Origin: Acidobacteriota bacterium
Lineage (GTDB): Bacteria > Actinomycetota > Acidimicrobiia > Spongiisociales > UBA5794
NCBI GenBank assembly: GCA_022562055.1
Contig: JADFQA010000025.1
Span: 1 to 46,138, forward strand
Length of the DNA stretch: 46,138 bases
Reading direction: 5' to 3'
Every line of letters starts with the position of its first letter. The stretch's first letter is position 1. The position numbers were made by a program, and so were the translations under genes. Positions 1,613 through 6,900 of the stretch are shown in pieces. The notes under the pieces were generated by a model. That model did no database searches. It saw only the letters and a program-made list of their open reading frames with translations, and was not told the DNA's origin.

Positions 1613-4528
1613 GTGCACTCGTCGGAACAGGACATACTCAGGTTGTTGGGACCGCTGGAGCTGGTCCTAGGTGGCGAGTGGGTCGATCCTGGAGGACCGA
1701 ATCAGCGCGCATTGCTCGCCTACCTTGTCCTGCGCGAAGGCGAGCCGGTCGCGATCCAGACGATCGTCGACGCGATCTGGGGCGACAATGCGTCCGAGGG
1801 TTCCGTGCGATCTCTCCGGACGTACGTGTCGAACCTGCGCCGTTTGCTGGGTTCGACGGTAGAGATACGCGGTGGGCAGGGCGCCTATCGCCTGACGCTG
1901 CACAGCCTGAAGACCGACATCGGTCTCTTCCGGCAACGTGTCGCGGTCGCTGACAACATTGAAGATTCCCGCGGCGTCGCAGCCGCGCTCGCATCCGCGC
2001 TCGCTCTCTGGCGGGGTCCGGTTCTCGTGGATGTGGATCGGCCGTGGGTACTCGACCGATCGTCGATCCTTGAGAGCCAACGCACGAATACCGTCGCCCG
2101 CTGGGCCGAGGCGACTATTGCCGACGGCGAACCCGAGCTTGTTATTTCGAAGATTGAGCGGATGGTTGCAGAGGCCGTCCTCGACGAACGGCTGAGCGGA
2201 ATCCTCATGCTCGCGTTATACCGGTCTGGTCGCCAGGCCGATGCATTGGCCGTCTATCGGCGCCTGCGAAACATGTTGGTGGAGGAACTCGGCGTGGAGC
2301 CAGGGCCTGAGTTACAGATCCTTGAAGAACAGATCCTGATGCACGATGTCACAGCCGGACGTGTCGAACCGGTATGGCTGTTCCCGGCACCTGCTTCCGA
2401 TCTGGTGGGTCGAAGTGTGGAGATCGAGGACCTACTGCAACACACCGAACGGGCGCGACTGCTAACGCTTACGGGTCCTGGGGGCGTCGGCAAGACACGG
2501 CTTGCTCTTGAGGTCGGCCGACGGATTCTTGCGGACGGCACGCGGCCTGTGTTCTTTGCCGATCTGTCTGCAGTCCAGGACGAATCCGCGGTCGACGCGG
2601 TACTCGCATCAAGTGTGGGTGTCCAGCCTCATCCAGAAGCGGGTCCGCTCGTGAGCCTGATCGAGTACCTTGCGCCTCGGTCGGCGGTCCTTATCGTGGA
2701 CAATTGTGAACACGTCTCGGACACGGTTGCCCGAGCGATTGCTTCGCTCGTACGGAGTTGTCCACAGCTTGTGGTAATCGCAACGAGCCGATCCTCACTC
2801 TTCGTTGACGGAGAGGTCACCTGGAGGACCCCGTCGCTTGCTCTTCCCGACCGTATCGATGCGTCCATCGAGGGACTCCGGCGGTGGCCCGCCGTCGAGC
2901 TCCTGCTGCGACGAGCACCGAGCACCTTCGAGCTGACTGCTGCTAACGCCGACGATGTTCTGGAGCTATGTCGGAGCCTCGATGGGTTGCCGCTCGCGCT
3001 CGAGATAGCCGCATCGCGTCTTGGCTCGATGACCCCTACTGAGATCCTCGCCACGCTCGGGTCACAAGTACAGCTATCGCGCACCGCAGCACCGGATGAT
3101 TCACGCCACGCAACCTTGTACGCGACCGTTTCGTGGTCCTACGAACTTCTTTCGCAGCAGCCACGCGAGCTACTCGTGCGGCTCGGGGTGATGTCTGGAC
3201 GGTTCCTCTTCGAGGACGTCCTCGCGGTGTGTGCTCCGGGGGCAGAGAACCCGGAAGCCGTGCGAGGTCAGCTGTCGGCTTTGGTTGATCAGTCGCTGGT
3301 CATGGCAGAGACCTCCGGCACCCGAACCAGGTATCGACTGCTGGAGACAATCCGTCGTTTCTCGGTCGCCCACCTCGGTACCGATGAGCCGGCTGTGAGA
3401 GATCGCCACGCTTGCCACTACGCCCAGTTGGCGACGGTCCAGGCTGCCAGGCTGCTCACCAACGAAGAAGGCGATGCCATCGTCGAGATGGTCGCCGCTC
3501 ACGACAACCTCCGCGACGCGTTCCGTTGGGCAATGGAGAACGGCGACTTGGATTCGGCGTCCACCATCGTCATCTCACTTTCCGACGGCGGGTACTGGAG
3601 ATCTCGTTCCGAAATCGTTACTTGGTCCCGGTCAGTGTGGGAGAACATGGCACCGAGCGATGTCCGCTGGCGAGCCGTGTCGGGAACGGCAGCCAGGGGT
3701 GCATGGATAGAGAGCCGGTTCGAGGACGCCGTCGAGTTTGCGAGCAAAGCAGCAGACGCAGCGGGAGTCGTGCCATCGATGAGTGGCTATCCGGAGGATG
3801 TACTTGCAGATGTTGCGTTGTATCGCGGTGACGCGAGCACGGCATTGTTGCACTACACGGGGGTGGTTCTGACCGCGCGCGAGCGCGGGGATTTGACGAG
3901 AGAGGCTTGGGCCACATATTACGTTTCGGTGACGAACGCAGTCCTCGGGCGGCTCGAAGAAGCTGCCCTCGCGGCGGCAAGAGCGCTGGCGATTGCTAGG
4001 AAGACGGGAAATCCGACGTCGCTTGCGTTTTCCCTCTATGCGACCGGTCTCGCAGTCAAGCATGACAAGCCGCAGGAAGCACGTGCGATGTTTGAAGAGG
4101 CGGTGAGGATGGCCGACTCAGTTCGCAACGAGTGGATGGGCGGCATCGCTCGGATGGAGCTTGCCTCGGTCAATACGGCCCATGGTGAGACCGCAACCGG
4201 CTTGCGGGGCTTCGCTGGCGTCGTCGACCATTGGTTCCGGGCTGCTGACGGCACGCAGCTACGACAGACGTGGCGGTACCTGACGAGCGCGCTAGTGGAT
4301 GTCGGCCTCCATGAGGAGGCTGCAGTCCTCGCCGGAGCGCTCCTTGTGGACACCGATTCGACTTTGGCTCACCCTCACCGGCGGGTCCTGGAAGTTATCA
4401 CGACCGCACTGGGTGACGCCCAATACCGACGGCTTACGATCAGGGGATCCATCATGTCCTTGCCCGAACTCGTCACGGTCAGTCTCGACGCAATCAATCG
4501 TGCTCTGGAGCTCGACGAGTCAGGATGA
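1613..4528 (+). CDS. AfsR/SARP-type BTAD regulator with NB-ARC ATPase and TPR repeats
   Basis: This 971-residue protein is a large cytoplasmic transcription activator. The order is an OmpR-like winged helix (about residues 5-95), a bacterial transcriptional activation domain (about 100-245, ending in VYRRLRNMLVEELGVEPGPELQ), an NB-ARC/STAND ATPase with Walker A GPGGVGKTRLA near residue 287 and Walker B AVLIVDNCEHV near 359, then helical TPR-like repeats. The GTG at 1613 is the only usable start, because an in-frame TAG lies at 1601-1603. It is followed 130 bases later by the DUF1326/DUF2182 operon, whose promoter region carries SARP-like direct repeats, so that operon is the likely target. 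The signal sensed is unknown. Confidence 0.9.
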   Translation: MHSSEQDILRLLGPLELVLGGEWVDPGGPNQRALLAYLVLREGEPVAIQTIVDAIWGDNASEGSVRSLRTYVSNLRRLLGSTVEIRGGQGAYRLTLHSLKTDIGLFRQRVAVADNIEDSRGVAAALASALALWRGPVLVDVDRPWVLDRSSILESQRTNTVARWAEATIADGEPELVISKIERMVAEAVLDERLSGILMLALYRSGRQADALAVYRRLRNMLVEELGVEPGPELQILEEQILMHDVTAGRVEPVWLFPAPASDLVGRSVEIEDLLQHTERARLLTLTGPGGVGKTRLALEVGRRILADGTRPVFFADLSAVQDESAVDAVLASSVGVQPHPEAGPLVSLIEYLAPRSAVLIVDNCEHVSDTVARAIASLVRSCPQLVVIATSRSSLFVDGEVTWRTPSLALPDRIDASIEGLRRWPAVELLLRRAPSTFELTAANADDVLELCRSLDGLPLALEIAASRLGSMTPTEILATLGSQVQLSRTAAPDDSRHATLYATVSWSYELLSQQPRELLVRLGVMSGRFLFEDVLAVCAPGAENPEAVRGQLSALVDQSLVMAETSGTRTRYRLLETIRRFSVAHLGTDEPAVRDRHACHYAQLATVQAARLLTNEEGDAIVEMVAAHDNLRDAFRWAMENGDLDSASTIVISLSDGGYWRSRSEIVTWSRSVWENMAPSDVRWRAVSGTAARGAWIESRFEDAVEFASKAADAAGVVPSMSGYPEDVLADVALYRGDASTALLHYTGVVLTARERGDLTREAWATYYVSVTNAVLGRLEEAALAAARALAIARKTGNPTSLAFSLYATGLAVKHDKPQEARAMFEEAVRMADSVRNEWMGGIARMELASVNTAHGETATGLRGFAGVVDHWFRAADGTQLRQTWRYLTSALVDVGLHEEAAVLAGALLVDTDSTLAHPHRRVLEVITTALGDAQYRRLTIRGSIMSLPELVTVSLDAINRALELDESG

Positions 4529-4580: not shown

Positions 4581-4618
4581 TTGAGCCTTCTTTGACCTGA
4601 CGTTGATATCGCTATGCA
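4581..4618 (+). promoter_or_regulatory. Candidate SARP operator and promoter of the DUF1326 operon
   Basis: Three heptamers start exactly 11 bases apart: TTGAGCC (4581), TTGACCT (4592) and TTGATAT (4603). They are followed three bases later by a -10-like TATGCA (4613-4618). SARP activators are known to bind heptameric direct repeats spaced one helical turn apart, just upstream of the -10, with a TCGAGC-like consensus. The match in layout, and the BTAD gene next door, support the call. Binding is inferred. Confidence 0.5.
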
Positions 4619-4657
4619 AGTGTGATTCCCAACGACCGGTCGAACGAGGAGATCAAC

Positions 4658-5254
4658 ATGACCTGGAACGTAAAGGGACAGTACTTCGAAACATGTAACT
4701 GCGAGGCGGCGTGTCCGTGCATATTCTTGAGCCCCCCAACAGAGGACGACTGCACCGTCCTTGTGGGGTGGCACATTGAGCACGGCGACTTCGAAGGAAC
4801 GAAGCTCGACGGGTTGAACGTCGCGATGGCCGTACTCTCGCCTGGACACATGATGGAAGTGAAATGGCAGGCAGCGCTGTACTTCGATGATCGCGCAACC
4901 GAAGACCAAATGAATGCGCTCGGAGCGATCTTTTCTGGGCAATCCGGGGGACATCCCGCACGGTTGGCGACCCATATCGGCACTGTGCTCGGAGCGGGAC
5001 CCGCAACGATCAGATTCGAGAAAGAGGGCAAACGGACATCTATGACGATCACCGGCGTCGCCGAGGCTGTCATCGTTGGCGCCGATGGACAAGGTGACGG
5101 TGCGATCACGGTAGAAGGTCATCCGCTGGCGATCGCACCCGGGTACGCGGCATCTGTGGCGCACTCGGAGAAGATGACGTACACCGATCACGGGATGCAG
5201 TGGAATCTGGAAAAGAAGAACGGACTCTATTCACCCTTCGAATACGCGGCATGA
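4658..5254 (+). CDS. DUF1326 protein, first copy
   Basis: This 198-residue soluble protein belongs to DUF1326, a family of unknown function often found with DUF2182. Its hallmark is the cysteine cluster CNCEAACPC at residues 13-21 directly after GQYFET, which looks like a metal or redox site. The start is ATG 4658, because AGGAGAT lies at normal spacing before it; an upstream in-frame start at 4622 lacks such a site. The stop overlaps the DUF2182 start in an ATGA, so the two are translationally coupled. A third operon gene is a second DUF1326. Function is not known; a role in metal handling is only an inference from the cysteines. Confidence 0.85.
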   Translation: MTWNVKGQYFETCNCEAACPCIFLSPPTEDDCTVLVGWHIEHGDFEGTKLDGLNVAMAVLSPGHMMEVKWQAALYFDDRATEDQMNALGAIFSGQSGGHPARLATHIGTVLGAGPATIRFEKEGKRTSMTITGVAEAVIVGADGQGDGAITVEGHPLAIAPGYAASVAHSEKMTYTDHGMQWNLEKKNGLYSPFEYAA

Positions 5255-6012
5255 CCACCGCAGCGGTCGCTCTCAGCCGGGCCAGGGGAGCGGTCGTAGT
5301 CGGGCTGATTGGCTTCACAGCGTTGTCGTGGACGTATCTGGCATTCGTGGCGAGCCGGGCCCAAGATATGTCATCGGTGTTTGCAATGCCGATGACCCCG
5401 GCATGGTCGTACGCGCAGGCCGCCGTTATGGCCGTGATGTGGGCGGTGATGATGGCGGCGATGATGCTGCCGTCGGCAATACCGATGGTGATCGCCTACG
5501 ACAGCCTCGATCGAGGATCGGCTGGCGGCAGGGGAGGTTCGACTCCCCTGTTCGTCACCGGCTATGTCGCGGTCTGGGCAGCGTTCGCGGTGGGCGCGAC
5601 GGCGCTCCAGTGGCTGTTAGCGACCGTGGCGCTCGTCGACGGTATGGGTGTCGTGACACAAAGCTGGTTCTCTGGTGGTTTGCTCGTCAGCGCCGGGGTG
5701 GTGCAGTTCTCGCCAGGCAAGCTCAGCAGCCTCGGCGCGTGTCGCACGCCTATGGGGTTCTTGATGACATCGTGGAGGGAAGGCAATGCCGGCGCACTGC
5801 AAATGGGTCTGCACCACGGGAGGTTGTGTCTCGGATGTTGCTGGTCGCTGATGATCTTGCTGTTTGTGCTTGGCGTGATGAACCTCGCTTGGGTCGCGGT
5901 GCTCGCCATCTTCGTGTTGGCTGAGAAGGTCGCCCCGAGGCGCATGATGATTTCTCGCTTTGGCGGGGTAGTACTGACGCTGTGGGGCGTCGCTGTGGTT
6001 CTAGGAGGATGA
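5251..6012 (+). CDS. DUF2182 integral membrane protein
   Basis: This 253-residue membrane protein has about six hydrophobic segments and the typical DUF2182 signatures: VMMAAMMLPSA early, ACRTPMGF near the middle, GLHHGRLCLGCCWSLM and VLAEKVAPRR late. The family is described as a predicted metal-binding membrane protein, and the paired cysteines of LGCCW and the histidines of GLHHG fit that. The start is the ATG inside the ATGA overlap with the preceding DUF1326 gene. The next gene begins one base after its stop. Together the three genes form a tight operon in which soluble cysteine-cluster proteins may serve the membrane partner. That role is inferred from co-occurrence. Confidence 0.85.
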   Translation: MTTAAVALSRARGAVVVGLIGFTALSWTYLAFVASRAQDMSSVFAMPMTPAWSYAQAAVMAVMWAVMMAAMMLPSAIPMVIAYDSLDRGSAGGRGGSTPLFVTGYVAVWAAFAVGATALQWLLATVALVDGMGVVTQSWFSGGLLVSAGVVQFSPGKLSSLGACRTPMGFLMTSWREGNAGALQMGLHHGRLCLGCCWSLMILLFVLGVMNLAWVAVLAIFVLAEKVAPRRMMISRFGGVVLTLWGVAVVLGG

Positions 6013-6013
6013 T

Positions 6014-6609
6014 GTGACTTGGAAAGTGAGCGGCTTGTACTACGAAGCCTGCAATTGTGAGGCAGTTTGCCCGTGCCGGCGCGAAGGGGATCGAAAGGGG
6101 GAGCATCGACGTACGACACCTGCGATTTTGTGTTGTCATGGAGCATCGACAACGGCCATGTAGACGGCCGCGATCTGTCGGGTCTTGCAGTGGTGATCGT
6201 GGGTTCTTATGCCGACGACGAGCCAGGGAGTCCCTGGCGTGTCGCGATGTTTGTCGACGAGAACGCGGACCAGGCACGGCAGAAAGATCTTGCGGATGTG
6301 TTTCTCGGTCGGATCCCTGGCGACACCAGGAAACTATACGGGCGAGCAATCAAAGAGGTTTCGATGGTGCGACCCGCCGCAATCGAGTTGGTGCATGTGC
6401 CCGGTCGGTGGCGCATCGCTGTCGAGACGTTCGTCGAGGTGCGGTCCACGATTGAGGCTGTCGCGGAGGGTCCGGTGACATGTGGCCTTACCGACCATGC
6501 CTCCGGCGTTGAGATGATCTCTGACGTCGTCACCGTGGCGGTGCCGCCGTTCGAGTGGAACCTGCGGGAGCGGTGCTCCTTCCAATCCAACTTTGTTTAC
6601 CAAGGGTAA
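6014..6609 (+). CDS. DUF1326 protein, second copy, needs a -1 frameshift
   Basis: Starting at GTG 6014, the frame encodes GLYYEACNCEAVCPCRREGD and then hits a stop at 6161. The rest of the DUF1326 domain (STYDTCDFVLSW, then EPGSPWRVAMFVDE) continues in the -1 frame to 6609. At the junction the zero-frame codons read A AAG GGG (6094-6100), an exact X XXY YYZ slippery heptamer. Slipping there gives a continuous 198-residue product, the same length as the first copy. The alternative is one missing G in a run of five, either a real mutation or a sequencing error. The unshifted product would be a 49-residue peptide keeping the cysteine motif. It overlaps no neighbour and ends the operon. Confidence 0.7.
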
Positions 6610-6738
6610 ACCGAGACACACCCGACTCTGCAGTGTCATCGACGTGGTGGGTCACCGAGGAGAGACGATCTGCACGCGCTTCCGCCCGATGATCCGCCAC
6701 TCGACCACCGTGAGGGCCGGTCTCGATGGGGCGAGACG

Positions 6739-6900
6739 CTAGCTGGCGCTCTGTGCGACCTTTAATGGTTTTGCGTCAGGCAGCATCATTTCGACGAGTT
6801 TGCCGTTCATCCATGCTGCAAACGACTGCGGCATCAGTCGGCCTGTCACGAAGGTCATGATCTTGTTCATGACGCCGGGGACGACGTCCCCGGTTGTCAC
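6739..6900 (-). pseudogene. Decayed gene tail, copy B (related to 1195-1380)
   Basis: From a GTG at 6900 this encodes 53 residues, VTTGDVVPGVMNKIMTFV then GRLMPQSFAAWMNGKLVE and MMLPDAKP, ending at a TAG at 6739-6741. The open frame continues upstream without a start until a TAA near 6957. The final 30 residues match copy A at the other end of the island. Both lie in the same orientation. It looks like the C-terminal remnant of a larger enzyme, perhaps a short-chain dehydrogenase. The rest of 6610-6965 holds no other gene that I can see. Confidence 0.5.

Follow-up and report, generated by a model that had tools for sequence, protein, structure and literature searches.

A candidate SARP-activated promoter with three 11-bp-spaced repeats upstream of a probably copper-related DUF1326/PpoB2 operon in Acidimicrobiia

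Results

Three direct repeats with an 11-bp pitch, TTGAGCC, TTGACCT and TTGATAT, precede an operon of DUF1326 and DUF2182 (PpoB2) genes in the window (the whole 46,138-nt stretch of DNA analyzed here, of which the first ~9 kb was studied). They start at 4581, 4592 and 4603, exactly as previously described, and the observation itself is confirmed. The array is very probably the operator of a SARP-activated promoter, through which the large SARP encoded by the adjacent gene would drive this probably copper-related operon. SARPs are known almost entirely as switches of antibiotic clusters. The interpretation given in the preliminary description is partly supported: its operator, regulator and target are kept, and its -10 element, transcription start and "unknown function" of the target genes are corrected. 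By sequence comparison alone, the full promoter could be placed, with three repeats, an 8-bp gap, a -10 element and a predicted start. The features are as follows.

1613..4528, plus strand: large SARP-type regulator, 971 aa, with winged helix, BTAD, P-loop NTPase and TPR (Pfam)
4581..4587, plus strand: TTGAGCC, putative SARP repeat 1; core placed at -49 by the afsS register
4592..4598, plus strand: TTGACCT, putative SARP repeat 2; core placed at -38, over the -35 position
4603..4609, plus strand: TTGATAT, putative SARP repeat 3; core placed at -27 by the afsS register
4618..4623, plus strand: predicted -10, AAGTGT, 8 bp past repeat 3 (xANNNT at gap 8 in 7/7)
4630, plus strand: predicted transcription start, from the afsS register (PMC10936776)
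4646..4651, plus strand: Shine-Dalgarno GAGGAG, from the sequence; conserved in orthologous leaders
4658..5254, plus strand: DUF1326 protein, 198 aa (PF07040, 8e-51); ATG start, cysteines conserved
5251..6012, plus strand: DUF2182/PpoB2-family membrane protein (PF09948 "Copper chaperone", 3e-62); ATGA overlap with DUF1326
6014..6609, plus strand: second DUF1326 gene, with a frameshift near 6095-6105; matches to DUF1326 in both of two frames

A repeat array conserved upstream of DUF1326

When three mismatches or fewer were allowed, a TTGA-based pattern gave two overlapping matches in the window, against 0.33 expected. The exact triple TTGA-N7-TTGA-N7-TTGA occurs as a single copy in the 2.93-Mb genome (G000), with none for the reversed control, and is present in 10 of 60 genomes (G000 and relatives), with one match for the control. 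Within the 129-bp intergenic region, the best three-copy repeat score at 11-bp pitch had p=0.015 under a naive test, and p ~0.10 when any pitch of 8-14 bp was allowed. Taken in the window alone, the repeats are only modestly unusual, a lead and not a proof; we accept the array as real because it is conserved across loci, not from the window statistics.

We gathered DUF1326 orthologs from relatives and from named public genomes. An orthologous BTAD gene precedes DUF1326, with the two genes co-directional, in seven loci (the window, L065, L070, L016, L017, L018 and L019), all from Acidimicrobiia-type MAGs of related lineages and thus not fully independent. The distance between the BTAD gene and DUF1326 is ~1 kb in L018 and 60-180 bp in the other six. 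The preliminary description had made its reading depend on conservation of the repeats in orthologous loci, and repeats with an 11-bp pitch do precede DUF1326 in all seven; in L070 the repeats number four, and two of these deviate from the core at one position. Pairwise identity across the set is 95% in the TTGA cores, 63% in the heptamer tails and 38% in the 4-nt spacers, and only 28% in the 33 bp upstream of the array. The array was not found in the three DUF1326 loci without the regulator (L020, L036 and L056). In L021, where the BTAD gene lies downstream of the operon, near-identical repeats are kept (TTTAACC-TTGACTC-TTGATCG), although no xANNNT hexamer was found there at gap 8. A pattern of two repeats plus a -10 matched the DUF1326 promoter in five of five genomes, with few other sites.

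The -10 element and the predicted transcription start

In SARP-activated promoters, the repeats lie 11 or 22 bp apart, and the 3' repeat is 8 bp from the -10 (PMC10936776). The gap between the last heptamer and a hexamer of the form xANNNT is exactly 8 bp in seven of seven promoters, and no other gap (0-25) gave such a hexamer in more than one. The hexamers at this gap are AAGTGT (the window), CACGGT (three times), GACGGT, GACCGT and CACTGT; the last, from L070, is identical to the -10 of afsS, whose -35 is TTCAGC at -38 to -33 (PMC10936776). When 4592 is set to -38 in the afsS register, 4603 falls at -27 and AAGTGT spans -12 to -7, which predicts a start at 4630; repeat 2 spans -38 to -32, overlapping a poor -35 region.

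The preliminary description placed a TATGCA -10 three bases beyond the array, with transcription starting near 4625. The distance is literally true, but TATGCA is not a conserved -10: an xANNNT hexamer stands at gap 3 in none of the seven promoters, and TATGCA is private to the window's genome; we rejected it as the -10. With AAGTGT (4618-4623) as the predicted -10 at the canonical 8-bp gap, the start is predicted at ~4630 rather than 4625. The region combines the hallmarks of a SARP promoter, namely 11-bp direct repeats, an 8-bp gap to the -10 and a poor -35 overlapped by a repeat. The array, the gap and their conservation support the original proposal of a SARP operator upstream of DUF1326.

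The adjacent regulator is a large SARP

The protein encoded upstream of the array matches BTAD (E-value 4e-34), Trans_reg_C (5e-9) and AAA_22 (1.1e-8, above cut-off), and has a Walker A motif, GPGGVGKT; its TPR matches are weak and below the Pfam cut-offs (TPR_12, 4.7e-5). An N-terminal winged helix with BTAD, followed by a P-loop NTPase (NOD) and, weakly, TPR, is the architecture of a large SARP. Searches with phmmer matched AfsR structures (2.5e-33, aligned through residue 586) and EmbR (1.7e-34, aligned over the SARP domain). The protein scored 190.7 bits with the NCBIfam equivalog for AfsR, far from the cut-off of 1430, and is not assigned as an AfsR ortholog. Among the DNA-contact residues of AfsR, W74, T88 and R94 are kept and K95 is replaced by Arg; the position of P79 holds Ser in the window regulator and Pro in its orthologs, and that of R92, which reads the repeat, holds Asn.

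The regulators of the orthologous loci are 62-80% identical to that of the window. Among the 60 genomes, a close regulator ortholog (at least 63% identity) was found only in G000, G005 and G022, which are also the only three with a DUF1326 protein at least 72% identical. This linkage and co-occurrence argue for the adjacent BTAD gene as the probable regulator acting on the array, as originally suggested.

Autoregulation through the same operator was considered and rejected (no TTGA-N7-TTGA-N7-TTGA triple is present upstream of the BTAD gene), as was a wide regulon: G000 holds no second copy of the exact triple, and the looser pattern of two repeats plus a -10 fits one other site. That site, the sole other one in G000 with two TTGA repeats and a -10 at gap 8, is G000:C16:54666-54697.

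Recognition helices and alternative explanations

A recognition helix of the form RSLRTYxSNxR(R/S) goes with the TTGA repeats, and the downstream BTAD gene of L021 retains it (RTYISNLRR). Our comparison also covered a second BTAD lineage, divergent to DUF1326 (L024, L037, L053 and L055), with the helix QSxxSRxR and the heptamer (C/T)TGCAAG; the 11-bp pitch is present in three of these four loci (p 0.005-0.01), and the repeat score was not significant in L037. Across the sequences compared, recognition helices track operators.

This evidence bears on other explanations of the array. The sequence TTGACC at 4592 is near the -35 consensus and has TATGCA 15 bp downstream, so that the two could form a sigma-70-type promoter in which the other TTGA copies are coincidental. 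We consider this very unlikely: a sigma-70 scan of the promoter region found no consensus promoter, TATGCA is absent from all orthologs whereas the 11-bp array is retained, and the array goes with the BTAD gene, L020, L036 and L056 being without both. It is extremely improbable that the repeats are functionless and were kept by recent common ancestry; the window-only score (p ~0.10 with any pitch) is what chance might produce, but the upstream flanks fall to 28% identity next to cores at 95%, and the regulators themselves are only 62-80% identical.

An operator does not by itself name its regulator or the sign of its action, and the array could serve a different regulator, or repression by the BTAD protein. 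Two further BTAD proteins are indeed encoded in G000; their recognition helices, however, are different (L001, SNTLQYQVAQLR; L003, LRALRWGLSEIR), and the adjacent regulator and the operator co-occur. As to repression, a weak -10 at 8 bp from the repeats is the arrangement of an activator site. Both variants are thus unlikely, and activation by the adjacent large SARP is the reading adopted here.

Some additional observations concern other BTAD genes and repeats. In the second BTAD-NTPase lineage, an xANNNT hexamer seemingly lies 10 bp after the last repeat (by eye). Other TTGA triples in the relatives mostly do not lie close to a BTAD gene. A different BTAD gene, with the recognition helix QTYVSNLRR, has a TTGA triple downstream of it on the minus strand of L131 (G032), near 1585-1610; this triple might represent a further SARP operator, for some other target.

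The target operon

The array upstream and the linked regulator support the DUF1326/DUF2182 genes as the probable SARP target, in agreement with the earlier proposal. These genes had been described as of unknown function, which does not hold entirely, DUF2182 being the PpoB2 "Copper chaperone" family of Pfam; the PF09948 domain scores 210 bits, above the cut-off of 28.7, which places the protein in the family. PpoB2 is the founding DUF2182/COG5486 member with an assigned role, namely a part in the transfer of copper to a tyrosinase (PMC2855505). No tyrosinase gene was found in the operon, which consists of DUF1326, DUF2182 and DUF1326. The frameshift in the second DUF1326 gene lies in a short G run of the assembly, and the gene is uninterrupted in G005; it may be a sequencing error or a real lesion.

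In the 42 DUF1326 proteins compared, C13, C15, C19, C21, C32 and H39 are invariant (CxC...CxC...C plus His), a pattern suggestive of a metal site. A confident AlphaFold model of the DUF1326 protein (pLDDT 91) gave a weak acetoacetate-decarboxylase-like match (TM ~0.5), too weak to be used as a functional clue. The family names and the cysteines together point to an operon that is probably copper-related. Our literature search found PpoB2/COG5486 only, and neither DUF1326 nor DUF2182 by name; the promoter type is known for SARPs, and the DUF1326/PpoB2 target is apparently undescribed in the literature searched.

Discussion

From these comparisons we infer SARP binding, activation, autoinhibition and the copper role, in a mechanism that would run as follows. 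The AfsR-like SARP from the adjacent gene would bind cooperatively, with each TTGANNN repeat occupied by one protomer and all protomers on the same face of the helix. The two promoter-proximal protomers, at -38 and -27, would adapt sigma region 4 to the poor -35 and bring RNA polymerase to AAGTGT, the weak -10, and the third, upstream at -49, would contribute affinity. The promoter so activated would drive the DUF1326-DUF2182(PpoB2)-DUF1326 operon. The NTPase and TPR parts probably keep the SARP domain inactive until signal and ATP are present, as in AfsR. The products, a Cys-rich DUF1326 protein and a PpoB2-like membrane chaperone, probably load or store copper.

The site had been presented as a SARP site outside antibiotic synthesis. 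Its probable target is indeed a non-antibiotic one, but not without precedent: EmbR in mycobacteria is a SARP outside antibiotic clusters. AfsR is pleiotropic, and offers a further precedent for SARP action beyond antibiotic clusters (PMC10936776). The AfsR-afsS system of Streptomyces coelicolor shares with the window the cores at -38 and -27 with the 8-bp gap, a weak -10 of the form xACxGT with a 20-bp spacer between -35 and -10, and a large SARP that also carries NTPase and TPR parts (PMC10936776). In contrast to the window, afsS has a TTCA core and two repeats rather than TTGA and three; the recognition helices differ at R92 (Asn here), the window regulator is not an AfsR ortholog, and its target is the DUF1326/PpoB2 operon. 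Three heptamers with 4-nt spacers are also found in the operator of pimM, bound cooperatively by PimR, a SARP-LAL regulator (PMC5930380); the PimR repeats, however, are CGGCAAG and lie off the -35, whereas those of the window overlap it. The PpoB1-PpoB2 operon of Marinomonas mediterranea shares the PpoB2 family protein, with a tyrosinase as its partner there and DUF1326 here.

A single-operon, copper-looking SARP target in uncultured Acidimicrobiia would constitute a clean regulator-operator-target unit, and the inducing signal of the regulator, once identified, would tell the function of DUF1326.

Dedicated regulators of other types often adjoin DUF1326/DUF2182 elsewhere, according to a count of neighbours, which is not a test of control. 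A divergent winged-helix-TPR regulator does so in Alphaproteobacteria (L025, L027, L029, L038, L050, L058, L059 and L066), and BTAD-like regulators with TPR, related to that type, in Burkholderiales (L063 and L064). LuxR-type regulators are found next to these genes in Acidobacteria, Chloroflexi and L020 (actinobacterial), and an AraC-cupin regulator next to the operon in L054 and L067.

As a tentative and rather doubtful generalization, DUF1326/PpoB2 might be a widespread inducible copper module with its own dedicated one-component activator in each lineage, the SARP of Acidimicrobiia being a one-operon metal-response switch. The recurrent linkage of DUF1326 to activators in other phyla suggests that the same question could be addressed in cultivable hosts.

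A direct repeat of 177 bp, with 79% identity between its two copies (1204-1380 and 6664-6840), lies on either side of the BTAD-DUF1326-DUF2182-DUF1326 unit, and the sequence has no other match in the genome. Judged by eye, the repeat probably represents the 3'-terminal part of a short-chain-dehydrogenase-like gene. At the same site in G002, a sister species, the cassette is absent, and ~730 bp separate the flanking genes, with a small ArsC-like gene (by eye) between them.
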